Of a DNA stretch of 35,494 nucleotides, positions 9,003 through 21,002 are shown piece after piece. The position numbers were made by a program, and so were the translations under genes. The stretch spans positions 1 to 35,494 of the forward strand of contig NZ_AKJF01000030.1 in NCBI RefSeq assembly GCF_000282475.1, read 5' to 3'. The notes below the pieces were generated by a model. The model ran no database searches, was not told where the DNA came from, and saw only the letters and a program-made list of their open reading frames with translations. This DNA comes from Pseudomonas sp. GM78. GTDB taxonomy: Bacteria; Pseudomonadota; Gammaproteobacteria; Pseudomonadales; Pseudomonadaceae. The first letter of the stretch is position 1. Each line of letters begins with the position of its first letter.

Positions 9003-10583
9003 CTACAAAGCTGAATCACTCACCTCCCCATCCACCAACCGCCGAATCCCCAGCGGATTGCCATTCTGCAAAGCCTCGGGCAACAACGCATCCGGATAAT
9101 TCTGGAAGCACACCGGGCGCAGGAAGCGGTCGATGGCCAAGGTGCCGACCGACGTGCCCCGCGAGTCGGACGTCGCCGGATACGGCCCGCCATGCACCAT
9201 CGCGTCGCACACCTCGACACCAGTCGGGTAGCCATTGAGCAGAATCCGCCCGACCTTTTCCTGCAACATCTCCGCCAGCCAGCGGTACTCCAGCAACTCG
9301 TCAGCCTCGCCGATCAAGGTCGCCGTCAACTGCCCGCGCAGGCCCTGCAGCGCCGCCGCCAACTGCGCGCGGTCCTCGACTTCGATGACGATGGTGGTCG
9401 GCCCGAACACTTCTTCCTGAAGCAGTTCATCACCCTTGAGCAACAGGCTGACATCGGCCTTGAACACTTGCGGCTGTGCCTGGTTACCCTGCTGCGGCTT
9501 GCCCGCCAGATGGCTCAGGCCCGGATGTTCGTGCAGTTCACCCAGGCCTCGGCTGTAGCTGGCCAGCGCCGGGGCATTGAGCATGGTTTGCGCAGGTTGC
9601 TGGTTCATGCTCGCGCAAAAGGTTTCGAGAAAGCTGCTGAACTGCGGTGAGCGCAGGCCGATGACCAGGCCCGGGTTGGTGCAGAACTGCCCGCACCCCA
9701 GGGTCACGGAACCGGCGAGCTGCGCCGCGATCTGTTCACCGCGCACGGCCAGCGCCTCGGGCAGCAGGAACACCGGGTTGATGCTCGACATCTCGGCGAA
9801 CACCGGGATCGGCTGGGGCCGGCTCGCGGCGATGTGGCTCAGGGCATTGCCACCTTTGAGCGAGCCGGTGAAACCCACCGCCTGGATCGCCGGGTGCTTG
9901 ACCAGCCACTCACCGACACCAGCGCCATAAATCATGTTGAACACCCCGGCCGGCATTTCTGTACGCTCGGCGGCGCGGATGATGGCGTCCGCCACCCATT
10001 CGGCGGTTGCCATGTGCCCGCTGTGGGCCTTGAACACCACCGGGCACCCGGCGGCCAGGGCCGAGGCGGTATCGCCGCCGGCCGTGGAAAATGCCAACGG
10101 AAAGTTGCTCGCGCCGAACACCGCCACCGGCCCCAGGGCGATGCGGTACTGCCGCAGATCCGGGCGCGGCAATGGCTGGCGCTCCGGCAACGCGCGGTCG
10201 ATGCGTGCGCCATAGAAATCACCGCGACGCAGCACCTTGGCGAACAAGCGCAACTGGCCGCTGGTGCGACCGCGTTCACCCTGGATACGCCCGGCGGGCA
10301 ACGCGGTTTCGCGGCACACGGTGGCGACGAAGTCATCGCCCAGCGCATCGATTTCATCGGCGATGGCATCGAGGAACGTCGCGCGTTTTTCCGCGCTCAG
10401 GCTGCGGTAGATCGGGTACGCCGCCGCGGCGGCATTGGCGGCAGCGTCCACTTCGGCTTCGGATGCCTGGAGGAAGGTGCAGGGCAATGGTTCCCCGGTG
10501 GTCGCATCGAGACTTTGCAGTTGCAAGGTGCCGTTGGCGCTGCGGCCGCCGCCGATGTAGTTGTGTCCAAGTGGCAATGTCAT
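9003..10583 (-). CDS. Alpha-ketoglutarate semialdehyde dehydrogenase (2,5-dioxovalerate dehydrogenase)
   Basis: This 526-residue aldehyde dehydrogenase carries the oxyanion Asn160 (GASNFP), general base Glu264 (FAEMSSINP) and nucleophile Cys301 (CGQFCTNPG). The EMSSINPVF and GQFCTNPG signatures are those of the NAD(P)-dependent KGSA dehydrogenase group used in non-phosphorylating sugar-acid pathways. It oxidises alpha-ketoglutarate semialdehyde to alpha-ketoglutarate, the last step before the TCA cycle. Start MTLPLGHNYIGG is preceded by AAGGAAA; a longer frame to 10643 would overlap the preceding gene's 3' end and has no ribosome site. It is the third gene of the lyxonate operon, 19 bp after the FAH-family gene. 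Function is well supported by motifs and by operon order. Confidence 0.9.
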   Translation of the reverse strand: MTLPLGHNYIGGGRSANGTLQLQSLDATTGEPLPCTFLQASEAEVDAAANAAAAAYPIYRSLSAEKRATFLDAIADEIDALGDDFVATVCRETALPAGRIQGERGRTSGQLRLFAKVLRRGDFYGARIDRALPERQPLPRPDLRQYRIALGPVAVFGASNFPLAFSTAGGDTASALAAGCPVVFKAHSGHMATAEWVADAIIRAAERTEMPAGVFNMIYGAGVGEWLVKHPAIQAVGFTGSLKGGNALSHIAASRPQPIPVFAEMSSINPVFLLPEALAVRGEQIAAQLAGSVTLGCGQFCTNPGLVIGLRSPQFSSFLETFCASMNQQPAQTMLNAPALASYSRGLGELHEHPGLSHLAGKPQQGNQAQPQVFKADVSLLLKGDELLQEEVFGPTTIVIEVEDRAQLAAALQGLRGQLTATLIGEADELLEYRWLAEMLQEKVGRILLNGYPTGVEVCDAMVHGGPYPATSDSRGTSVGTLAIDRFLRPVCFQNYPDALLPEALQNGNPLGIRRLVDGEVSDSAL

Positions 10584-10602
10584 GAGGGTTTCCTTAGCTG
10601 GC

Positions 10603-11598
10603 TCACAGCGTCCGCACCTGACCGATGGGCAACGGCTGGGCACTTTCGCCGATGCCGTTCACCAGTGGCGCACCGAACTCTTCCAGGCTGATCTGGAAGC
10701 GATCCCCCGGCTGGGTCTTCACGCCATCGGCAAACGACAGCGTGGCGGTACCGAAGTAGTGCACATGAACATCACCGGGCCGCAAGAACTGCGCGTACTT
10801 GAAGTGGTGGAACTCGAGGTTGGCCAGGCTGTGGCACATGTTGTCCTCGCCGCTGAGAAACTCCTTCTCCCAGATCGTTTCGCCATTGCGCTTGATGCGG
10901 CTGGTGCCCACCAGGTGCCGGGGCAATTCACCGACGCGCAGCTCCGGCCCATACGCGCAGCAGCGCAGTTTCGAGTGGGCCAGGTACAGGTAGTTTCGCC
11001 GCTCCATGACATGGTCGGAGAACTCATTGCCCAAGGCATAACCGACGCGATACGGCTGGCCGTCGTCGCCGATCACGTAGAGTCCGGTCAGCTCCGGTTC
11101 TTCACCGGCGTCTTCGGCAAAGGGTGGCACCGGGAAGTCCGCGCCGGGGCGCACGACGATGCTGCCGTCGCCCTTGTAGAACCATTCCGGCTGCGCACCG
11201 ACCTGCCCGGCCGCTGGCTTGCCGCCCTCCAGGCCCCATTTGAACATGCGCATGGTGTCGGTCATGCCGGCTTCGACGGCGCCCTCCTGCTGGTGCATTT
11301 TGTCCCGCGTCGAAGCGCTGCCCAGGTGGGTCAGGCCGGTGCCGCTGATCAGGCAATGGGCCGGGTCTTCGTGGTCCAGCGGGGGCAGGACCTGGCCCTG
11401 CTGCAACAACTGTGCGTAGTCCGGGCCCGGCTCGGTGCCGCGTAAGGCGACTTCTTCTTGCAGGCTGCGCTGGGTGCGGATCGCCGCGAGTGCCAGTTCG
11501 CGGGTGTTGCGGGTGCCCTTGAGCACCTGGACTTGTGCCCCGTCGACGAGCCCGACCTGGCGTTCACCGGCAGTGTTTTCGAATTGAATCAGGCGCAT
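10603..11598 (-). CDS. FAH-family 2-keto-3-deoxy-L-lyxonate dehydratase (AraD1/GguC type)
   Basis: This 331-residue protein has the fumarylacetoacetate hydrolase fold, seen in the C-terminal block VGYALGNEFSDHVMER (185-200). It resembles the AraD1/GguC family, as I recall it. FAH-family dehydratases of this kind turn 2-keto-3-deoxy-pentonates into alpha-ketoglutarate semialdehyde. Placement between the lyxonate dehydratase (42-bp gap) and the semialdehyde dehydrogenase (19-bp gap) makes that the natural role. The start MRLIQFENT has a strong GGAGG ribosome site about six bases upstream. The exact stereochemistry of the substrate comes from the neighbouring dehydratase, not from this sequence alone. 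Confidence 0.82.
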   Translation of the reverse strand: MRLIQFENTAGERQVGLVDGAQVQVLKGTRNTRELALAAIRTQRSLQEEVALRGTEPGPDYAQLLQQGQVLPPLDHEDPAHCLISGTGLTHLGSASTRDKMHQQEGAVEAGMTDTMRMFKWGLEGGKPAAGQVGAQPEWFYKGDGSIVVRPGADFPVPPFAEDAGEEPELTGLYVIGDDGQPYRVGYALGNEFSDHVMERRNYLYLAHSKLRCCAYGPELRVGELPRHLVGTSRIKRNGETIWEKEFLSGEDNMCHSLANLEFHHFKYAQFLRPGDVHVHYFGTATLSFADGVKTQPGDRFQISLEEFGAPLVNGIGESAQPLPIGQVRTL

Positions 11599-11640: not shown

Positions 11641-12816
11641 TCACTCGATGATGTTGAAGTCGCTCAGGTACTCATCGGAGATTTCCAGGCCCAGGCCCGG
11701 TTTGTTGTCGTCGAGCTGGATGTAGCCGTTGACCGGTTGCGGCTCGCCCTTGAACACGTAGTAGAAGAGTTCGTTGCCGACCTCGACGTCGAACACCGGG
11801 AAGAACTCGGCCATCGGCGAGGCGGTGGTGGACATGGTCAGGTGGTAGTTGTGCATCTGCCCGGCGTGGGGGATGACAGGCACTGACCAGGCCTCGGCCA
11901 TGGCGTTGATCTTGCGCGCGGCGGTGATGCCGCCGACGCGGTTGGTGTCGTACTGGATCACGTCGACAGCGCGACGTTCGAGCAGGTCCTTGAAGCCGTA
12001 GGAGGTGAACTCGTGCTCGCCACCGGAGATCGGCATGATCCCCATTTTTTTCAGCTCGATGTAACCCTCGATGTCGTCGGCGATCACTGGCTCTTCCAGC
12101 CAGCGCGGCTCGAATTCGGCCAGCTTGGGCAACATGCGCCGGGCATATTCGAGGGTCCAGCCCATGTAGCATTCGAGCATGATGTCGACGTCGGGGCCGG
12201 CCAGGTTACGCAAGGCGCGCACTTGTTCGATGTTCTTGCGCATGCCCGCCGGGCCGTCTTTGGGACCGTAGCCGAAGCGCATTTTCAGCGCGGTGAAGCC
12301 CTGGTTCAGATAGCCCTGGGCTTCTTCGAGGAACAGGTCGAGGTTGTCGTTGGCGTAGAGCTTGGAGGCGTAGGTCCAGATCTTCTCCTTGGTACGGCCG
12401 CCGAGCAGTTTGAACACCGGCTTGTTGACCGCCTTGCCCATGATGTCCCAGATGGCGATGTCGATCGCCGAGATGGCCGCCATGCCGATGCCTTTGCGCC
12501 CCCAGGCGTGGCTCTGGCGGTACATTTTCTGCCAGATGTATTCGTTGTCGAACGGGTCTTCGCCAATCGCGATAGGGGCCAGGTAAGTGTCGATGATTTC
12601 CTTGGCCACCCGCGGCGCCAGGGCGCAGTTGCCGATGCCGACAAGGCCGTTGTCGGTCTCGACTTCCACCACCAGCCAGCCGTGGAAACGGAACGAGCCC
12701 ATGGCGTCGCCGCGCTCGAACAGGATGTCGCTGGCGTTGGTGCAGAAGTGCGCCTGAGGTGGGACGACTTTGCCTTTCCACTCGAAAACGCGGGTACGGA
12801 TCGCTTTGATTTTCAT
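11641..12816 (-). CDS. lyxD: L-lyxonate dehydratase (enolase superfamily)
   Basis: The 391-residue protein is a mandelate-racemase-type enolase-superfamily enzyme. Visible residues are a KxR motif (Lys178-Met-Arg180) at the second barrel strand, metal-ligand candidates Glu215, Glu241 and Glu267, Asp290 on strand six and His317 on strand seven. From memory, characterised L-lyxonate dehydratase (Labrenzia) uses Arg179 of a KxR motif and His316 with a His-Asp dyad; the near-identical positions strongly favour this isofunctional family over L-rhamnonate dehydratase. It removes water from L-lyxonate to give 2-keto-3-deoxy-L-lyxonate. Start [11 protein letters not shown] was chosen on family N-terminus, with AAGGAA upstream. 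It is first in a three-gene operon and preceded by a LysR-type box at 12961-12975. Activity on related pentonates or L-rhamnonate is possible. Confidence 0.85.
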
Positions 12817-12909
12817 GAATACAGTTTCCTTGCGCTGCCGGCTTCTTGTCATTGTTGTGTCGCTGCCTGGAGCCGCTCAGGTGAGCGGTGCCAGGCATTC
12901 GATGGAGCG

Positions 12910-12975
12910 ACTGTAGCCAGCGCCCGGGGGCTGCGGATAATCACTTATGCGTATCCGGCGATAACCTGGGGTGAT
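12910..12975 (-). promoter_or_regulatory. Predicted LysR-controlled promoter of the lyxonate operon
   Basis: Read on the minus strand: the box ATCACCCCAGGTTAT (12975-12961), a 13-bp gap, the block TAAGTGATTATCCGC (12947-12933), and a -10-like TACAGT (12915-12910). The box is a T-N11-A dyad (ATN-A-CC...GG-N-TAT). The same three-part layout at the same spacing precedes the MFS operon (16567-16503) and the tripartite transporter operon (16728-16792). The start codon lies 94 bp beyond the -10-like hexamer. Confidence 0.65.
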
Positions 12976-13026
12976 GGCAGAAACGGGATATCTGCCAGGT
13001 CGGGTTATCAGCCGCGCCGCAAAAAA

Positions 13027-13118
13027 CTGTGGGAGCGGGCTTGCCCGCGATAGCGATCTGACAGTCACTTTCAACGTGTCTGTACTGGCGCCATCGCGGG
13101 CAAGCCCGCTCCCACAGG
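13027..13118. repeat. REP pair (REPIN), GGGCTTGCCCGC type
   Basis: CTGTGGGAGCGGGCTTGCCC at 13027 is mirrored by CGGGCAAGCCCGCTCCCACA ending at 13116. It separates the 3' end of the pdxA-like gene from the promoter of the lyxonate operon, consistent with two separate transcripts. Confidence 0.9.
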
Positions 13119-13145
13119 GGATTTATACAGTTTTCGAAATCGAGG

Positions 13146-14150
13146 TCAGTAGCTGTTGCCACCCATTCGGCAAGCAATCTCGAACGCCTGGCGCGTCGCA
13201 CCGACGTTGGCCTTGCCCTGCCCCGCGATGTCGAATGCGGTGCCATGGGCCGGGGTGGTGATCGGGATCGGCAAGCCGCCCTGCACCGTGACGCCACGGG
13301 AGAAGCCCATCAGCTTGATCGCGATCTGCCCCTGGTCGTGATACATCGTGACGACCGCGTCAAAGGCGCTGGCATCGCCCTGGACCTTGAGGAAAATCGT
13401 GTCGCCCGGGTACGGTCCTTCCGCCGCGATGCCCAGCGCCTGAGCCTTGCGCACCGCAGGGCCGATGATGTCCAGTTCCTCGCGACCGAACGAGCCGTTG
13501 TCGCCGTTGTGCGGGTTCAATCCGCAGACGCCGATGCGCGGTTTCTCCAGGCCATTGCGCTTCAACGCGGTGTCGATCAGTTGAATCGCTTCCACCACCC
13601 GCTCCTGGCTGAGCAGCCCCGAGACTTCGGCCAACGCCACGTGAGACGTCACCCGTGAAGTCCAAAGGTTGTCGAGCACGTTGAATTCGCAGAACGGCCC
13701 GTGGAAATCCAGCAGCTCGGCGAACCAGTGCAACTCATCGTTGTGGGCCATGCCGGCCATGTGCAGCGAAGTCTTGTTCAACGGCCCGAACAGCACCGCG
13801 TCGGTGGTCCCGGCCTCGGTCAGGCGCAGGGCGATTTCCAGGGTGTCGAGGCTGTAGCGACCGCCAATGACACTGGCCTCGCTGCGGGGAAATTCACCCA
13901 CAGTGTCACCGCGAAAATCGTAGAACAGCGGTGTGTCATCGTCGAACGACAGCTGCTCCAGCGACTCCACCCGGCGATAGGGAAACTCCACCCCGGCGAT
14001 GCGCATGCCGCGGCGCATTTCCGCTTCGTCGGCAATCAGGATCACGTTGGCCTGGCCGCGTACATCGGGCTCGCCGAGCAAGCGCGCGATCAGTTCCGGG
14101 CCGATGCCCGCCGGGTCACCCAGGACCATCGCGATGGTTGTCTTGTTCAT
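13146..14150 (-). CDS. PdxA-family 2-carboxy-L-lyxonate decarboxylase (predicted)
   Basis: This 334-residue PdxA-family protein keeps GDPAGIGPE at the N-terminus and three metal-binding His, His170 (VTSHVAL), His214 (NPHNGDNG) and His271 (MYHDQGQI), matching the spacing of E. coli PdxA. It is unlikely to be the vitamin B6 enzyme. It sits in a sugar-acid operon, its start overlaps the amidohydrolase stop by 4 bp (ATGA), and the promoter is shared with the lyxonate genes. In the L-ascorbate pathway described in Cupriavidus necator, a PdxA-family protein decarboxylates 2-carboxy-L-lyxonate to L-lyxonate using NAD catalytically, which fits this neighbourhood. The alternative, phospho-threonate or phospho-erythronate oxidation by PdxA2, normally needs a DUF1537 kinase, and none is present here. 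Confidence 0.8.
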   Translation of the reverse strand: MNKTTIAMVLGDPAGIGPELIARLLGEPDVRGQANVILIADEAEMRRGMRIAGVEFPYRRVESLEQLSFDDDTPLFYDFRGDTVGEFPRSEASVIGGRYSLDTLEIALRLTEAGTTDAVLFGPLNKTSLHMAGMAHNDELHWFAELLDFHGPFCEFNVLDNLWTSRVTSHVALAEVSGLLSQERVVEAIQLIDTALKRNGLEKPRIGVCGLNPHNGDNGSFGREELDIIGPAVRKAQALGIAAEGPYPGDTIFLKVQGDASAFDAVVTMYHDQGQIAIKLMGFSRGVTVQGGLPIPITTPAHGTAFDIAGQGKANVGATRQAFEIACRMGGNSY

Positions 14151-15103
14151 GCTTCACTCCTCAAGGATTCAGGCAGCGCCCGGTCAATGGCGCAAGGTTC
14201 GCAGCGATAGATTCGCTGCGCGTTGCTGTAGAACAGTCGCTCCTGATCGGCCAGTGGCAGATCGGCGACGATGAATTTGAAACCGCTGTAGATGTCGTCG
14301 AACGAGCCACACAGGCTGTCCACCGGGAAATTGCTGGCAAACATCGCTCGCCTGGTGCCGAACATCGCGATGATTTCGCGCACGATCCAGGCGTTGTCGA
14401 TGGCACGCCACGCCCGGCCCGCCTGGCCCAGGCCGGAGATCTTGACCTGCACGTTCGGCCACTGCGCCAACCGCGCCATCGCCGCTCGCCACCCCGCCAA
14501 ACCTTCGGCGCTGCGGTCGTTGGGCAACCCGGCGTGATTGAGAATCAGGGTGATGCCGGGGAAGTCCCGGGCCAGCCGTTCGGCCTCGGGCAGGTTCCAC
14601 CAGGGGGTCTGCAAGTCAAAGTGCAGGCCCAGCCCCTCCAGCGCGGCGTAACTGCGCCGCCAGTGCTCGTCGCTCATCAGGCTGCGCACCCGCCCGAACT
14701 GTTCGGGTGACGTCGGCCCGCCGGGTTTGTGCCGCACGCTGCGCACGCACTTGTAGCTGGCCTGCTCGGCCAGCACCGCGATGGCGTCCGGGTGGTCGAG
14801 CCAGGCTTGCGCGACGATCGCATTGGGTACCCCGTAACGGGCGGCCAGTTGCTCGATGAAACGGGTTTCGCCAATCGGGTCCTGGGGGTTCCATTCGGTC
14901 TCGACATACACCGTTTGCACCACCCGATGTTCACCGGCATCGGCGAAGTAATCCTCGGGAAAATAGCGGCGCTTGATCGCGGTGTAATCGCCGTAGCGAA
15001 ACGCAATATTGGCTTCGGGCGCCAGCCACGGATGGTCATTGACCGTTGGGTCCCAGAAGTGATGATGGGCATCGATGATCGGTCCATTCCAACGCTCAGC
15101 CAT
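14147..15103 (-). CDS. Amidohydrolase-superfamily lactonase, predicted 2-carboxy-L-lyxonolactone hydrolase
   Basis: A 318-residue COG3618-type amidohydrolase. The N-terminal metal site is DAHHHFWD (His13-x-His15), with further conserved blocks LNHAG and SNFPVDS late in the barrel. Relatives hydrolyse sugar lactones such as L-fucono- and L-rhamnono-lactone. L-lyxonate has the same configuration at C2-C4 as L-rhamnonate, so a lyxono-type lactone is plausible. In the ascorbate pathway of Cupriavidus an amidohydrolase opens 2-carboxy-L-lyxonolactone just before the PdxA step, the same order as here. Start MAERWNGPIID overlaps the transporter's end by 8 bp, and its stop overlaps the pdxA-like start, so all three are translationally coupled. 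The longer frame to 15193 lies inside the transporter gene and is rejected. Confidence 0.78.
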   Translation of the reverse strand: MAERWNGPIIDAHHHFWDPTVNDHPWLAPEANIAFRYGDYTAIKRRYFPEDYFADAGEHRVVQTVYVETEWNPQDPIGETRFIEQLAARYGVPNAIVAQAWLDHPDAIAVLAEQASYKCVRSVRHKPGGPTSPEQFGRVRSLMSDEHWRRSYAALEGLGLHFDLQTPWWNLPEAERLARDFPGITLILNHAGLPNDRSAEGLAGWRAAMARLAQWPNVQVKISGLGQAGRAWRAIDNAWIVREIIAMFGTRRAMFASNFPVDSLCGSFDDIYSGFKFIVADLPLADQERLFYSNAQRIYRCEPCAIDRALPESLRSEA

Positions 15104-16436
15104 AACGCACCTCGTCGAGACTGATGAACAACGTCGCCAGTACAAACACTGCCGAGCACGCGGCAAAGAACCCGAGCACAGGGGCGAAGCCACCGCTCAT
15201 TTGCAGGATCACCCCCACCAGGATCGGCACCGCGATACCGCCGGTGCTACCGGCCATGTTCATCACACCGCCGATCAAACCGACCCGCGCCGGTGCTGCC
15301 AGCAACGCCGGGAAGCTCCAGTAGAGGCTGCCCCACATCAGGAAAAACGCGGTCATGGCCAACAGCGCCACGGCCGCAAAAGGATCGCTCAGGGTCGGCA
15401 ACAACAGGAACGCGCCGAGGGCCACCAGGCCGGAAAACGCCAGCAGGCTCTTGACCGCCACCCCGCGACGCACGCCCTTGCGGATCAAGCCATCGCAAAG
15501 GAAACCACCGGTCAACGAACCCAGTGCGCCGCAGACGAAAATCACGAAGGTCGCCGCGCCAATGCCCTTGATATCAAAGCCCCGGGCTTGCGCCAGATAG
15601 CTCGGCCCCCAGGTCAGCAGGCCGAAATACACCATCGCCCAACTGGCACGACCGATCAGCAAGCCGCTCAGGGAACGGGCGGCGATGCCCAGGCCCTTGA
15701 CCGGTGCCCGGGCGGCTTCAGCGGCCGGCGTGGCGCGCCCGGCGTTGATCTTCGCCAGCTCCAGGGCATTGACCTGCGGGTGAGCGTTCGGGTCATCCCG
15801 CAGATAACGCCGCGCCAGCCAGGCCAGCAACAGGGTCGCCACACCGGCGATCACGAAGGCCAGGCGCCAGGAGTCCAGCGACGCAATCAGGTAGGCAATA
15901 ATCAACCCGCCGAGCGCCACACCCAACGGGCTGCCGCTGTCCATCAACACCGCACCGCGACTGCGTTCGCTGGGTGCCAGCCATGAGGAGATCAGCTTGC
16001 CGCCAGACGGAAACAGCGGCGCTTCCGAGGCCCCCAGGGCCACGCGGGCAAACAACAAAGACAGGCCGCCCGTGGCGAACGCCGCCAGCACCTGGAACGT
16101 GCCCCACAACCCCGTGGACCAACTGATGACCCGATGCGGTCCGAAGCGATCGATCAACCAGCCGCCAGGAATCTGCAACAGTGCGTAGGCCCAGAAGAAG
16201 CTGCTGAGGATCAGGCCCTGCATGCTCGGGGTGAGGGAAAACTCATGGGCGATGGTCGGCATGGCGATGGACAGCGATACCCGATCGATCAGGTTGACCA
16301 TGGTCAGCGCAAAGATGATCGCGAAGATCCGCCAACGCACGTTGCTGGCCTTGGCAGTACCCGCTTGGGGCATTGCCGCGGCGGCGGTCGGAGCACCTGC
16401 GCCAGGCAGATGCAGGGAAGCACTGGGACGAGCCAT
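15096..16436 (-). CDS. MFS transporter, sugar-acid (anion:cation symporter) type
   Basis: This 446-residue protein has about 12 membrane segments. The first helix pair, MVNLIDRVSLSIAMPTIAHEF, and the WLIDRFGPHRVISWST loop resemble the ACS family of glucarate, galactarate and tartrate symporters. The N-terminal 30 residues are a polar, Ala/Pro-rich cytoplasmic tail. The start at MARPSASLHL has GAGGT about eight bases upstream. It is first in the operon with the amidohydrolase and PdxA-like genes and carries its own LysR-type promoter. It probably imports an acid feeding that pathway (2,3-diketogulonate, a lyxonolactone derivative or lyxonate); which one cannot be read from sequence. A second, unrelated transporter is encoded divergently under a matching promoter. 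Confidence 0.87.
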   Translation of the reverse strand: MARPSASLHLPGAGAPTAAAAMPQAGTAKASNVRWRIFAIIFALTMVNLIDRVSLSIAMPTIAHEFSLTPSMQGLILSSFFWAYALLQIPGGWLIDRFGPHRVISWSTGLWGTFQVLAAFATGGLSLLFARVALGASEAPLFPSGGKLISSWLAPSERSRGAVLMDSGSPLGVALGGLIIAYLIASLDSWRLAFVIAGVATLLLAWLARRYLRDDPNAHPQVNALELAKINAGRATPAAEAARAPVKGLGIAARSLSGLLIGRASWAMVYFGLLTWGPSYLAQARGFDIKGIGAATFVIFVCGALGSLTGGFLCDGLIRKGVRRGVAVKSLLAFSGLVALGAFLLLPTLSDPFAAVALLAMTAFFLMWGSLYWSFPALLAAPARVGLIGGVMNMAGSTGGIAVPILVGVILQMSGGFAPVLGFFAACSAVFVLATLFISLDEVRYG

Positions 16437-16502
16437 GGTGCGTACCTCGTTTTTTTATTGTTGTGGTTGCAAGCGCGTCGCTTCGTGGCGACCTGTGTGG
16501 GC

Positions 16503-16567
16503 ACTATCGAAGGCCCGGTGATAACCGTCTAATCAAAACTTGAAATCAGGTGATAGCTTCGGGTTAT
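16503..16567 (-). promoter_or_regulatory. Predicted LysR-controlled promoter of the MFS-amidohydrolase-pdxA operon
   Basis: On the minus strand: box ATAACCCGAAGCTAT (16567-16553), a 13-bp gap, block GTTTTGATTAGACGG (16539-16525), then -10-like GATAGT (16508-16503), 17 bp after TAGACG. The block differs from that of the divergent promoter (GTTTTGACTAGACGC) at only two of 15 positions, at identical distance from the box. Confidence 0.72.
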
Positions 16568-16614
16568 GGCATGCCCCGCTTTCAATGGGCTTTCAACGTC
16601 GGCACGCATTTCTT

Positions 16615-16717
16615 CTGTAGGAGCGAGCCAGCTCGCGATGGTCGTCAACGAAAACCCGTGTTTCCTGAATAAACGTGGCGCCCTCGAGCCCATCGCGAGC
16701 AGGCTCGCTCCTACAGG
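16615..16717. repeat. REP pair (REPIN), GAGCNRGCTCGC type, in a divergent promoter region
   Basis: CTGTAGGAGCGAGCCAGCTC at 16615 is mirrored by GCGAGCAGGCTCGCTCCTAC ending at 16715. The outer arms read GTAGGAGC instead of GTGGGAGC, changed on both sides. Unlike the other REP pairs, which lie at gene 3' ends, this one lies between the operators of two divergent promoters. Confidence 0.88.
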
Positions 16718-16727
16718 AGTCCGAGCT

Positions 16728-16792
16728 ATAACCCCAGGCTATCGGTGTATGTATTGTTTTGACTAGACGCGGCGGCGGCGCCTTCCCACACT
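16728..16792 (+). promoter_or_regulatory. Predicted LysR-controlled promoter of the tripartite transporter operon
   Basis: Box ATAACCCCAGGCTAT (16728-16742) is a T-N11-A dyad (ATA-N-CC-NNN-GG-N-TAT). The block GTTTTGACTAGACGC follows 13 bp later (16756-16770), then -10-like CACACT (16787-16792), 17 bp after TAGACG. In LysR systems the distal dyad is usually the recognition site and the block near -35 the activation site, which fits this spacing. The start codon lies 72 bp beyond the hexamer. Confidence 0.72.
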
Positions 16793-16863: not shown

Positions 16864-17877
16864 ATGCGAAATGCATTCGTCCGTCGCACATCCCGTCTGT
16901 TTCTTGGTTGCACGCTGGTCGCCGCTGGCGCCCTCCCCGCTTTGGCCCACGCCTGGCAACCGGACAAGAACGTCGAAATCGTTGTCGCCGGCGGCCCCGG
17001 TGGCGGTACCGACCAGCTCGGTCGCCTGATCCAGTCGATCATCACCACGCACAAGTTGCTCGACGTCAATACCATCGTCCTCAACAAGGGCGGCGGCAAT
17101 GGTGCCGAAGCCTTTCTCGACATGAAGATGAACAAGGGCGATGCCGAGAAACTGGTGATCGGCACCAACAACATCTACCTGTTGCCGCTGGTGTCCAAGC
17201 TCGGCTATCAATGGCAGGAGCTGACGCCGATTGCCGCCGTGGCCGAGGATGACTTCATTCTCTGGAGCTACAAAGGCGCACCGTGGAAGGATGCGAAAAG
17301 CTTCTACGAAGCGGTCAAAGCCGACCCGTCGAAGCTGCGCATGGGGGGCAGCCAGTCCAAGGATGTCGACCAGACCCTGACCCTGCTGCTGAACCAGACC
17401 ACCAACAGCAAACTGGTGTACATCCCGTTCAAGAGCGGCAGTGAAGCAGCCACCCAGCTGGCCGGCAAACACATCGCCGCCAACGTCAACAACCCCAGCG
17501 AAAGCATCAGCCAATGGCGTGGCGATCAGATCGAACCGCTGTGCGTCTTCAGCAAGGAGCGCATGAGCTACACCGACAAAGTCGCCGGTGACAAATCCTG
17601 GGCCGACGTGCCGACCTGCCACGAACAAGGCCTGGGCATCGATCAATACCGCTTCCCGCGCACCGTGTTCATGCCCGGCGATATTTCCGCCGAGCAGCGC
17701 GCGTTTTATGTCGAGCTGATGCGCAAAGTCACTGAAACCCCAGAGTTCAAGGCCTACGTCAAGCAGAACGCGCTGGTGCCGACCTTCCTTGAGGGTGAGC
17801 CGCTGACCGCCTACATCGAAAAAGACACCGCACGCGTCACCCCGGTCTTCAAGGAAGCCGGGTGGTTGAAAAACTGA
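16864..17877 (+). CDS. Tripartite tricarboxylate transporter, periplasmic binding protein (TctC/Bug)
   Basis: A 337-residue secreted protein. The N-terminus has a classic signal peptide: RRTSR, then the hydrophobic run FLGCTLVAAGALPALAHA, with cleavage likely after AHA. The mature start WQPDKNVEIVVAGGPGGGTDQLGRLI is the Bug/TctC hallmark of ligand-binding proteins for carboxylates. It delivers substrate to the TctA/TctB-type membrane pair encoded next. A GAGG ribosome site lies about ten bases before ATG. It is first in an operon with a LysR-type promoter shared by the lyxonate genes, so the ligand is probably a sugar acid of that pathway; this is inference. Confidence 0.9.
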   Translation: MRNAFVRRTSRLFLGCTLVAAGALPALAHAWQPDKNVEIVVAGGPGGGTDQLGRLIQSIITTHKLLDVNTIVLNKGGGNGAEAFLDMKMNKGDAEKLVIGTNNIYLLPLVSKLGYQWQELTPIAAVAEDDFILWSYKGAPWKDAKSFYEAVKADPSKLRMGGSQSKDVDQTLTLLLNQTTNSKLVYIPFKSGSEAATQLAGKHIAANVNNPSESISQWRGDQIEPLCVFSKERMSYTDKVAGDKSWADVPTCHEQGLGIDQYRFPRTVFMPGDISAEQRAFYVELMRKVTETPEFKAYVKQNALVPTFLEGEPLTAYIEKDTARVTPVFKEAGWLKN

Positions 17878-17931: not shown

Positions 17932-18465
17932 ATGTCCCATTCTTCGGATTCACCCGCGCTGGTCGGCACCCGTTGGGTCGAACTCGGCCTGACACTCTTC
18001 ACCGCGCTGATCGGCGTGGTGGTGATGTTCGGCAGCGTCGAACAAGGTATCGGCTGGGGTGATGCCGGCCCCGAGCCGGGTTACTTCCCCTTCTACATCG
18101 GCCTGATGCTCAGCGCCGCGAGCGTGGCCAACGGCGTGTTGACCGTGGTGCGCTGGCAAGCGCTGAGCATTGCCTTTGTCAGTCGCGGTGCATTCAGGCA
18201 AGTGCTGTCGGTGTTCATCCCGATTGCGCTGTTTGTCGCTGCCATGCCGTTGACCGGCATCTACGTCGCTTCGGCGTGCTTCATCGCCTGGTTCATGTGG
18301 CGTGACAAGGTCCGCGCCAAGCCTTACGGCAAATGGATGATCGCCACGGTATCCCTCGGCGCGGTCCTGGCCAGCTACCTGATTTTCGCGCTGTGGTTCA
18401 AGGTCCCGCTGGATGCCGGCCCGTTGGGCGACTGGATTACCCTGGTCGGGAGAAATTTCAAATGA
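17932..18465 (+). CDS. Tripartite tricarboxylate transporter, small membrane subunit (TctB)
   Basis: A 177-residue protein with about four membrane segments: one starting near WVELGLTLFTALIGVVVMF, one around YFPFYIGLMLSAASVANGVL, one near VLSVFIPIALFVAAMPL, and one near the C-terminus. The GDAGPEPGYFPFYIG motif is a TctB signature. It pairs with the large TctA-type subunit. ATG at 17932 has GGAGG seven bases upstream. Its stop overlaps the start of the next gene by four bases (ATGA). Confidence 0.88.
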   Translation: MSHSSDSPALVGTRWVELGLTLFTALIGVVVMFGSVEQGIGWGDAGPEPGYFPFYIGLMLSAASVANGVLTVVRWQALSIAFVSRGAFRQVLSVFIPIALFVAAMPLTGIYVASACFIAWFMWRDKVRAKPYGKWMIATVSLGAVLASYLIFALWFKVPLDAGPLGDWITLVGRNFK

Positions 18466-19991
18466 GCGAATTCGATTCCCTGTTGCAAGGCATGAACCTG
18501 ATCCTGACCCCGGGCCACATCGGCTTGATGGTGATCGGCGTGCTACTGGGCATCCTGGTCGGCGTGTTGCCCGGCCTCGGCGCCCCCAATGGCGTGGCAC
18601 TGTTGTTGCCGCTGACGTTCACCATGTCGCCCGTGTCGGCGATCATCCTGTTGTCGTGCATGTATTGGGGCGCGCTGTTTGGCGGCTCGATCACCTCGAT
18701 CCTGTTCAACATCCCCGGTGAGCCCTCATCGGTGGCGACGACGTTCGATGGCTACCCAATGGCCCGCGAAGGCCGCGCCGCCGAAGCCCTGACCGCAGCG
18801 TTCAGTTCGGCGTTGCTGGGGGCACTGGCCGGGGTGTTGTTGCTGACCTTCCTGTCGACCAAGATTGCCGCATTCGCCATGTCGTTCAGCTCGCCGGAGT
18901 TCTTTGCGGTGTACCTGTTGGCCTTCTGCACCTTCATCGGCATGAGCAAGAACCCGCCGCTGAAAACCGTGGTGGCGATGATGATCGGTTTCGCCATGGC
19001 GGCGGTCGGCATGGACACCGTGTCCGGCAACCTGCGCCTGACCTTTGACCAGCCGATCCTGATGACCGGCATCAGCTTCGAAGTGGCGGTGATCGGCCTG
19101 TTCGGCATCGGCGAAATCCTCTGCACCGTGGAGGAAGGCCTGGTGTTCCGTGGCGAACATGCACGCATTACCCCGATGGTGATCCTGCGCACCTGGGCGA
19201 AACTGCCGCGCTACTGGTGGACCATCGTGCGCAGCACCCTGGTCGGTTGCTGGATGGGCATTACGCCGGGCGGGCCAACCGCCGCATCGTTCATGAGCTA
19301 TAGCCTGGCGCGACGTTTTTCGAAGAACCGCGACAACTTCGGCAAGGGTGAACTCGAAGGCGTGATCGCCCCGGAAACCGCCGACCACGCCGCTGGCACC
19401 AGTGCCTTGCTGCCGATGTTGACCCTGGGCATTCCCGGTTCGGCCACTGCAGCGGTGATGCTCGGCGGCTTGATGATCTGGGGCCTGCACCCGGGGCCAA
19501 CGCTGTTCGTCGAACAGCATGACTTCGTCTGGGGCCTGATCGCCAGCATGTACCTGGGCAACGTGGTGAGCCTGATCGTGGTGTTGGCCACCGTGCCGCT
19601 GTTCGCCTCGATCCTGCGCATTCCGTTCTCGATCATCGCGCCGATCATCATCATGGTCTGCGCCATCGGTGCCTACTCGGTGCACAACTCGTTCTTCGAC
19701 GTGGTGCTGATGCTCGGTTTCGGCGCGTTGGGTTATCTGTTCAAGAAGCTGGGCTACCCGATCGCGCCGCTGGTACTGGCGGCGGTACTGGGCGACAAGG
19801 CCGAGGACGCGTTTCGCCAGTCGATGCTGTTCTCGGACGGGCACCTGGGGATCTTCTGGTCCAACCCATTGGTGGGCGGCCTGACCACGGCGGCGCTGCT
19901 GATGCTGTTCTGGCCGTTGATTTCCAAGGCGCTGCAAGCCCTGATCGGCCTGCGCAAAGCCCCGGTCGCCAAGCCAAAATCGGTGCTGTGA
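18462..19991 (+). CDS. Tripartite tricarboxylate transporter, large permease subunit (TctA)
   Basis: A 509-residue permease with about 12 membrane segments. The N-terminal motif GVLVGVLPGLGAPNGVALLLPLT and the block WGALFGGSITSILFNIPGEPSSVATTFDG are the TctA family signatures; a second related motif, GITPGGPTAASFMSY, marks the internal repeat. It is the transport channel of the ion-driven three-part system. The start at MSEFDSLLQG overlaps the TctB stop by 4 bp; the longer frame from 18333 lies in the TctB gene and is rejected. A LysR regulator gene follows after 69 bp on the same strand. Confidence 0.92.
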   Translation: MSEFDSLLQGMNLILTPGHIGLMVIGVLLGILVGVLPGLGAPNGVALLLPLTFTMSPVSAIILLSCMYWGALFGGSITSILFNIPGEPSSVATTFDGYPMAREGRAAEALTAAFSSALLGALAGVLLLTFLSTKIAAFAMSFSSPEFFAVYLLAFCTFIGMSKNPPLKTVVAMMIGFAMAAVGMDTVSGNLRLTFDQPILMTGISFEVAVIGLFGIGEILCTVEEGLVFRGEHARITPMVILRTWAKLPRYWWTIVRSTLVGCWMGITPGGPTAASFMSYSLARRFSKNRDNFGKGELEGVIAPETADHAAGTSALLPMLTLGIPGSATAAVMLGGLMIWGLHPGPTLFVEQHDFVWGLIASMYLGNVVSLIVVLATVPLFASILRIPFSIIAPIIIMVCAIGAYSVHNSFFDVVLMLGFGALGYLFKKLGYPIAPLVLAAVLGDKAEDAFRQSMLFSDGHLGIFWSNPLVGGLTTAALLMLFWPLISKALQALIGLRKAPVAKPKSVL

Positions 19992-20060: not shown

Positions 20061-21002
20061 ATGTCCCGAATTCCTGATGCCAATGTGATCCACAGTCGAC
20101 TGCGTCTGCGCCAGCTACGGCTGATGCTGGCGCTGGAGGAATTCGGCTCGTTGCGCCGTGCCGCCGACCACATCGGCATGACTCAACCGGCAGCGACCAA
20201 GATGCTGCATGAGGCTGAGGATTTGCTCGGCGTCGAGCTCTTTGAACGCCTGCCGCGGGGTATGCGCTCAACCCCTTTCGGGGAAACCGTCATCTACTAC
20301 GCCCGCATGGTCTTCGCCGAGCTCAGCGGCATGCGCGAAGAACTGGTGGCCCTGCAATCAGGCAACCTGGGGCGGGTCGCCGTTGGCGCGATTCCGGCGC
20401 TGGCCTCGGGGTTGTTGACCCGCACCATCGCGACCTTGAAGCAGAGCCATCCACGCCTGTCCATGAGCATCCAGGTCGACACCAGTGACGTGCTGGTGCA
20501 GGCGTTGTTGCAGGATCAACTGGACATTGTGCTGGGACGGATTCCGCCTGGAGCACGGGCCGAAGAACTGCTGTTCGACAGCCTGGGTGAAGAAGAGCTG
20601 TGTGTGATTGCCGGTGCGCAAAATCCGCTGGCGCAGGAGAAGCAACTGGGTTGGGCAGAATTGCAGAACATGACCTGGGTGCTGCAACAACAGCCAAGCC
20701 CGATGCGCGCGATCATCAATCAGGTGTTCCACAATGCGCGGGTCGATATTCCGAGCAGCATCGTCGAAACCACCTCGATCATGACCTTGCTCTCGTTGAT
20801 CCAGCAGACCGATATGCTCGGTGTCACGCCGGTGTCGGTGGTCGAGGATTATCCCGGTCGTGACCTGCTGGCGGTGTTGCCGATCAAGTTCGAAGCACGC
20901 TTGCCACCCTACGGGCTGATCACCCGCCGCCATCGCATCCAGTCGTCGGCGATGCAGGCGTTCATGAACTCGGTACGCGCCGAACATGCGCTGAGCAAAT
21001 GA
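20061..21002 (+). CDS. LysR-family regulator, predicted controller of the lyxonate/ascorbate-product regulon
   Basis: A 313-residue LysR protein. The winged helix-turn-helix spans about residues 13-72 (RQLRLMLALEEFGSLRRAAD, QPAATKMLHEAEDLLGVELF), followed by the effector-binding domain from about GRVAVGAIPALASGLL. ATG at 20061 is taken as start; TTG at 20046 in frame is possible. It sits downstream of the TctA gene in the same direction and may be co-transcribed; no copy of the shared box is seen before it. Being the only regulator in the island, it is the best candidate to bind the boxes at 12961, 16553 and 16728. The inducer is likely a pathway sugar acid (inference). Confidence 0.85.
   Translation: MSRIPDANVIHSRLRLRQLRLMLALEEFGSLRRAADHIGMTQPAATKMLHEAEDLLGVELFERLPRGMRSTPFGETVIYYARMVFAELSGMREELVALQSGNLGRVAVGAIPALASGLLTRTIATLKQSHPRLSMSIQVDTSDVLVQALLQDQLDIVLGRIPPGARAEELLFDSLGEEELCVIAGAQNPLAQEKQLGWAELQNMTWVLQQQPSPMRAIINQVFHNARVDIPSSIVETTSIMTLLSLIQQTDMLGVTPVSVVEDYPGRDLLAVLPIKFEARLPPYGLITRRHRIQSSAMQAFMNSVRAEHALSK

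Follow-up and report, generated by a model that had tools for sequence, protein, structure and literature searches.

The window analyzed here, the entire 35.5-kb contig NZ_AKJF01000030.1 (35,494 nucleotides) of the 7.29-Mb genome of Pseudomonas sp. GM78, contained three adjoining gene units that were each preceded by the same LysR-type promoter layout. The units, predicted to be operons on the basis of strand and spacing, were lyxD-gguC-aldehyde dehydrogenase (minus strand), MFS-amidohydrolase-pdxA (minus strand), and tctC-tctB-tctA-lysR (plus strand), hereafter lyx, mfs, and tct (Table 1). The three sites very probably represent canonical activator promoters for a LysR-type transcriptional regulator (LTTR), and would form a single small regulon confined to this locus and controlled by the PcaQ-like LysR encoded at 20061-21002. 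The interpretation of a shared LysR-type layout at the three units is supported by the geometry of the sites, their specificity in the genome, their conservation across Pseudomonas, and published work on the P. aeruginosa counterpart PA2206.

Promoter layout and specificity

Each promoter contained a 15-bp box, exactly 13 bp of spacer, a 15-bp second element, and then a -10-like hexamer. The boxes and the 13-bp spacing proposed in the first-pass annotation were found exactly at all three promoters. The annotation had also placed -10-like hexamers 17-18 bp past the TAGACG position, and a count by hand put TACAGT (lyx), GATAGT (mfs), and CACACT (tct) at 18, 17, and 17 bp past the TATCCG/TAGACG hexamer, respectively. 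Its claim of one common pattern held for the boxes and the spacing, but only loosely for the second element at lyx. This element occurred in two versions, TTTTGANTAGACG at mfs and tct and AAGTGATTAKCCG at lyx.

Allowing two mismatches, the box pattern matched five places in the window against 0.83 expected, and none of 100 shuffles reached five; the matches were the three sites and two others with two mismatches. Genome-wide, the box pattern built from the three sites had three exact matches, all in the window. With one mismatch it had 16 matches against 12 for the reversed control, which is chance level, and the loose box alone was therefore rejected as a genome-wide predictor. When up to three mismatches were allowed, the second element of the mfs/tct version alone likewise matched the window no more often than chance predicts (three matches against 2.78 expected), two of the three being the exact mfs and tctC sites themselves. 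The composite of box, spacing, and second element, at up to three mismatches, matched the genome three times, all in the window, with one match for the reversed control. The many equally good matches at random genomic sites that would have spoken against the layout were not found in this genome at that setting.

Conservation across Pseudomonas

Conservation was examined in 81 loci, comprising the window and the best 80 of 124 relatives, all Pseudomonas, with a scan that used a fixed 13-bp spacing (other spacings would escape it) and a score threshold of 16. All 80 fetched loci carried one to three sites before cluster genes. In total, 214 sites stood ahead of the genes anticipated for them (79 tct, 75 mfs, and 60 lyx sites), with three sites in 59 loci, two in 15, and one in seven, several of the last lying on short contigs. 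Six of the 75 mfs sites preceded pdxA or the amidohydrolase where no MFS gene matched, and for 17 of the 60 lyx-type sites the assigned gene was a second, PA2214-like MFS gene ahead of lyxD (e.g., L147, L155, L158, and L165). In the window the promoter led straight into lyxD, without the second MFS gene seen in other loci. The other above-threshold hits among those listed were two cases in which the same box was also read on the opposite strand (L162 and L165).

Mean bits per column for lyx, mfs, and tct were 1.59, 1.40, and 1.77 in the box, 1.55, 1.05, and 1.48 in the spacer, and 1.77 (59 distinct lyx-type sequences), 1.81, and 1.68 in the second element. The 60 bases upstream of the box (-60 to -1 relative to it) were not conserved (0.48, 0.27, and 0.18). 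These values are biased upward in the scored columns, as sites were chosen by score; the 13-bp spacer was unscored and yet conserved. The T and A of the T-N11-A dyad were present in all 205 distinct sites, although the score that picked the sites includes these columns. Conservation extended to the -10-like position: of 72 distinct mfs sites, 56 had GATAGT at a single offset, and of 74 distinct tct sites, 63 had CACACT, and the -10-like position of the lyx class shifted by one base among sites.

These data bear on whether the three sites arose by chance or by recent duplication of one promoter, which has a vanishingly small probability. The mfs and tctC sites are indeed alike and flank repeat elements in the window; however, the sites were kept across species despite changed flanks and changed distances between the mfs and tctC box starts (161 bp in the window, 22 bp in L065). 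In six loci (L064, L065, L066, L142, L144, and L145), the divergent mfs and tctC boxes lay nearly back to back, with 21-22 bp between starts, an arrangement that would place two LysR complexes side by side.

A second survey covered 199 same-genus genomes, including that of the window; it overlaps the locus set and is not independent of it. The LysR (E up to 1e-60) was encoded in 33 genomes. The mfs/tct composite was found twice in each of 28 genomes (the reversed control gave no match in any genome listed), the lyx composite once in each of 28 genomes, and either class in 30 genomes, all among the 33 LysR-positive ones. No composite of either class occurred in the 166 LysR-negative genomes. 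The flanks of the LysR in the other 32 positive genomes carried sites in 29 cases, and these sites preceded units of the lyx, mfs, or tctC type; a few genomes had a site on another contig or at a greater distance from the LysR. Conservation in orthologous promoters, on which the proposed layout depended, was thus seen in 80 of 80 loci and in 30 of 33 LysR-positive genomes.

The three LysR-positive genomes without a composite were L068 (a 75% identical homologue), L069 (a fragment of ~166 residues), and L070 (44%), and no lyx, mfs, or tct genes matched around their LysR genes in the 16 kb fetched. These distant homologues were dropped as added evidence. A box-like ATTACCTGAGGTGAT at L070:8197-8211, ~30 bases or less from the aligned lysR start and on the divergent strand, was too little to use. 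A search beyond the family gave matches to the LysR (E up to 1e-50) in 4 of 368 further genomes from the class; these had 35-38% identity and were not orthologues. In G043 (locus L054) and G149 (locus L065), lyxD lay close behind pdxA and no separate lyx composite was found, in agreement with transcription of lyxD from the mfs promoter. In L058 and L067 (whose contig also appears as L214), lysR adjoined a lyx-type site in divergent orientation, the usual LTTR arrangement, and no tct genes matched within the 16 kb fetched. This layout resembles the P. fluorescens Pf-5 arrangement mentioned in PMC3557286.

The regulator and its counterpart PA2206

The LysR contained an HTH_1 domain (PF00126, 59.6 bits) and a LysR_substrate domain (PF03466, 141.3 bits), both above gathering thresholds. 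Its identity by tblastn was 100% (rounded) to the P. putida 17522 locus and 99% to those of P. umsongensis and P. reinekei. The top NCBIfam match was PcaQ (TIGR02424) with 154.4 bits, far under the equivalog cut-off of 303.8, so an assignment as PcaQ itself was ruled out.

In the P. aeruginosa PA7 locus (L165), the LysR was 83% identical, the gene order was tctC-tctB-tctA-lysR with a divergent mfs-amidohydrolase-pdxA unit, and a further MFS gene was followed by lyxD. Judged by synteny, by the box, and by the description of the PA2206-PA2217 region in PMC3557286, the PA7 protein appears to correspond to PA2206. According to Reen et al. (2013), PA2206 binds PA2214-15 in an electrophoretic mobility shift assay (EMSA), is said to require the complete ATTGCCTGGGGTTAT box, and activates the PA2214-15 promoter in both P. 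aeruginosa and E. coli (PMC3557286). The PA7 locus contained a single copy of ATTGCCTGGGGTTAT, which lay upstream of the MFS-lyxD unit, in the order ATTGCCTGGGGTTAT, CGACGAATGCGCA, GAAGTGATTATCCGC, 15 bases, and CTACAGT. As read from the PA7 sequence, this arrangement is the lyx layout of the window (box, 13 bp, second element, and -10-like hexamer), with the lyxD box of the window in the place equivalent to the EMSA-tested box, and GAAGTGATTATCCGC was identical to the lyx second element of the window at 14 of 15 positions. A published fragment with the region downstream of the box alone was not bound by PA2206 (PMC3557286), as would be expected if binding begins at the box. Sites also preceded the mfs and tctC genes of PA7 (scores 25.0 and 31.4).

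It is unlikely that the LysR activates the lyx unit only, with the mfs and tctC sites weakly bound or serving repression or tuning. The effect on PA2214-16 and its absence on PA2207-09 reported by Reen et al. (PMC3557286) favor such a restriction, whereas the mfs and tctC sites show roughly the same conservation as the lyx site in box and second element (values above), share its geometry, and accompany it in PA7, where all three sites are present.

Several observations weigh against a single regulator acting at all three promoters as proposed. The PA7 box was identical to the window lyx box at 10 of 15 positions, and to the reverse complement of the tctC box at 14 of 15. In PMC3557286, PA2206 had no influence on PA2205 or PA2207-09 (data not shown), showed no autoregulation, and left its own upstream fragment unbound; it also bound pvdS and PA4881, was linked to an oxidative-stress phenotype, and had a box whose Bprom-based position adjoined or overlapped -35 instead of lying at -65. 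At the window promoters, TAGACG would make a weak -35 and CACACT is far from an ideal -10. Of the three classes, only lyx showed a second dyad at the activation site (complementarity 0.70 at centre 29.5; six neighbouring centres 0.12-0.34), whereas mfs (0.43; neighbours up to 0.42) and tct (0.32; up to 0.47) gave no ground to claim it; it was dropped as a general activation-site feature. Finally, the co-occurrence of motif and LysR is partly due to their shared cluster, and so is not independent proof of binding.

It is highly improbable that the sites are recognised by a different LysR of the cell while the neighbouring one does something else. LysR binding at the window promoters is a prediction in this organism, which leaves room for another regulator, and the absence of the composite from the LysR-lacking genomes is partly explained by cluster linkage. 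Nevertheless, this absence, the use of the syntenic protein PA2206 in the published EMSA (PMC3557286), and the divergence of lysR from a site in L058 and L067 all argue for the neighbouring LysR.

Experimental backing for one regulator driving three units is confined to the lyx unit, through the PA2206 counterpart. It is our conjecture that activation of mfs and tctC needs a pathway ligand that was missing in the published work; the Results and Discussion of PMC3557286 mention no pathway ligand. The published autoregulation test used a fragment just 5' of PA2206 and would miss read-through from tctC.

Proposed mechanism

LTTR recognition sites usually lie near -65. When the -10-like hexamer was set as -12 to -7, the box centre was predicted at approximately -64 (mfs and tct) or -65 (lyx). 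A LysR dimer would occupy the 15-bp T-N11-A box at about -64/-65 as the recognition site, and the second dimer of a tetramer would contact the conserved element 13 bp further on, overlapping -35, as the activation site. Upon binding of a pathway metabolite, the tetramer would shift and help RNA polymerase to start. As lysR lies behind tctA, activation of tctC could raise LysR itself in a positive feedback. The sites, spacing, specificity, and conservation are read directly from the DNA; binding at mfs and tctC, the ligand, the feedback, and the pathway are inferred, the tetramer mechanism being taken from LTTRs in general.

Genes of the locus

The NCBIfam model for GguC was above its cut-off, whereas those for PdxA, MFS, and the lactonase were below theirs. 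Inverted repeats of the types CTGTAGGAGCGAGCC...GGCTCGCTCCTACAG and CTGTGGGAGCGGGCTTGCCCGCG...CGCGGGCAAGCCCGCTCCCACAG were present at 16615-16716 in the MFS-tctC gap and at 13027-13117 in the pdxA-lyxD gap, which we take to resemble Pseudomonas REP (repetitive extragenic palindromic)-type elements. Such repeats may explain the wider gap between the mfs and tctC boxes in the window.

Table 1. Promoter elements and genes of the lyx, mfs, and tct units in the window.
Feature	Position	Strand	Remark
LysR box (recognition site), lyxD promoter, ATCACCCCAGGTTAT	12961..12975	-	exact match; predicted centre ~ -65
Second element, lyxD promoter, TAAGTGATTATCCGC	12933..12947	-	overlaps predicted -35 region; presumed activation site
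-10-like hexamer TACAGT, lyxD promoter	12910..12915	-	read from sequence; region conserved, 1-bp shift in some species
LysR box, MFS-amidohydrolase-pdxA promoter, ATAACCCGAAGCTAT	16553..16567	-	exact match
Second element, MFS promoter, GTTTTGATTAGACGG	16525..16539	-	exact match
-10-like hexamer GATAGT, MFS promoter	16503..16508	-	read from sequence
LysR box, tctC promoter, ATAACCCCAGGCTAT	16728..16742	+	exact match
Second element, tctC promoter, GTTTTGACTAGACGC	16756..16770	+	exact match
-10-like hexamer CACACT, tctC promoter	16787..16792	+	read from sequence
lyxD-like enolase-superfamily sugar-acid dehydratase (MR_MLE)	11641..12852	-	family search; true start may be internal ATG at 12816
GguC/AraD1-family protein, presumed 2-keto-3-deoxy-acid dehydratase, lyxD operon	10603..11598	-	NF040903, 555 bits, above cut-off
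Aldehyde dehydrogenase, lyxD operon	9003..10643	-	PF00171
MFS transporter, gene 1 of MFS-amidohydrolase-pdxA operon	15096..16436	-	family search
Amidohydrolase-2 family protein (lactonase-like)	14147..15193	-	listed start is first GTG of open reading frame, overlaps MFS gene
PdxA-family dehydrogenase (catabolic PdxA2-like by context)	13146..14150	-	family search
TctC-type solute-binding protein of tripartite transporter	16864..17877	+	family search
TctB	17932..18465	+	family search
TctA	18483..19991	+	family scan covered whole open reading frame from 18333
PcaQ-like LysR-type regulator, counterpart of P. aeruginosa PA2206 by synteny	20061..21002	+	69 bp 3' of tctA, same strand

Pathway, relation to known systems, and significance

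The gene set points to the breakdown of L-lyxonate, and the amidohydrolase, PdxA-like enzyme, and MFS transporter point to its ascorbate-derived precursors. The L-lyxonate pathway of P. aeruginosa PAO1 was reportedly described by Ghasempur et al. in 2014, and the ascorbate pathway by Stack et al. in 2020. The window presumably matches the former in its enolase-superfamily dehydratase, GguC/FAH-type dehydratase, aldehyde dehydrogenase, and MFS transporter, and the latter in its PdxA-like enzyme and amidohydrolase. PA2214 is listed as a putative L-lyxonate transporter in one paper, and a review gives carboxy-lyxonolactone and L-lyxonate as products of ascorbate breakdown. The regulon would thus cover uptake and breakdown of L-lyxonate, and probably also of its ascorbate-derived precursors.

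Systems of this type have been described before, and experiments in a relative, P. aeruginosa, have covered the regulator and one of its targets. As in the PA2206/PA2214-15 system (PMC3557286), a syntenic LysR ends the tripartite transporter operon, and the tested box has the same layout in its PA7 copy. PA2206 was published there as a regulator of oxidative stress for which the cluster held one direct target, with a predicted -35 beside or overlapping the box, whereas here three cluster promoters carry the site in many species and the box is predicted to lie near -65. PcaQ of Sinorhizobium meliloti, the best NCBIfam match, has a similar box, given as ATAaccgggggatTAT, of the ATAACC type, in PMC5002191 and PMC3557286. 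In contrast, the score of the window LysR was 154 against a cut-off of 304, and its targets are sugar-acid genes, not protocatechuate genes. In a 2024 survey of P. aeruginosa LTTRs, PA2206 was still assigned to pathogenesis and oxidative stress, with a PcaQ-like motif noted. No literature joining PA2206 and lyxonate, or describing LysR control at the three lyxonate/ascorbate cluster promoters, was found in searches that covered subscription literature thinly and are weak evidence of absence. As far as searched, the new points are the regulon of three promoters and how widely it occurs in the genus, the proposed placement of the box near -65, the different main role suggested for the regulator, and the sites before the MFS-amidohydrolase-pdxA and tctCBA-lysR operons, PA7 included.

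The conserved job of PA2206 looks catabolic. That its main role is instead oxidative-stress and iron regulation, with metabolism secondary, is very unlikely. The peroxide sensitivity, the 58 genes changed, and the binding to pvdS and PA4881 in PAO1 (PMC3557286) suggest such a role; however, the composite was nowhere else in the genome of the window at up to three mismatches, the sites in the 81 loci precede catabolic genes, and the same paper reports no raised peroxide susceptibility for pvdS or PA4881. A further idea, possible but doubtful, is that the PA2206-type LysR is a dedicated sensor of spent vitamin C. It would respond to a product of ascorbate oxidation (2-carboxy-L-lyxonate, L-lyxonate, or a related compound) and jointly induce uptake, lyxonate breakdown, and the branch through carboxy-lyxonate, while tctCBA-lysR would provide positive feedback. 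In that case, the phenotypes seen for the P. aeruginosa mutant with peroxide and in zebrafish would result from the handling of oxidised ascorbate and not from a separate stress regulon.

The layout predicts direct targets beside PA2206, namely PA2207-09, published as unaffected, and the mfs-amidohydrolase-pdxA unit, unlisted in the published work. It defines a catabolic locus with a clearly bounded regulon of three promoters, and could explain the presence, within a sugar-acid cluster, of a regulator known by its link to oxidative stress.

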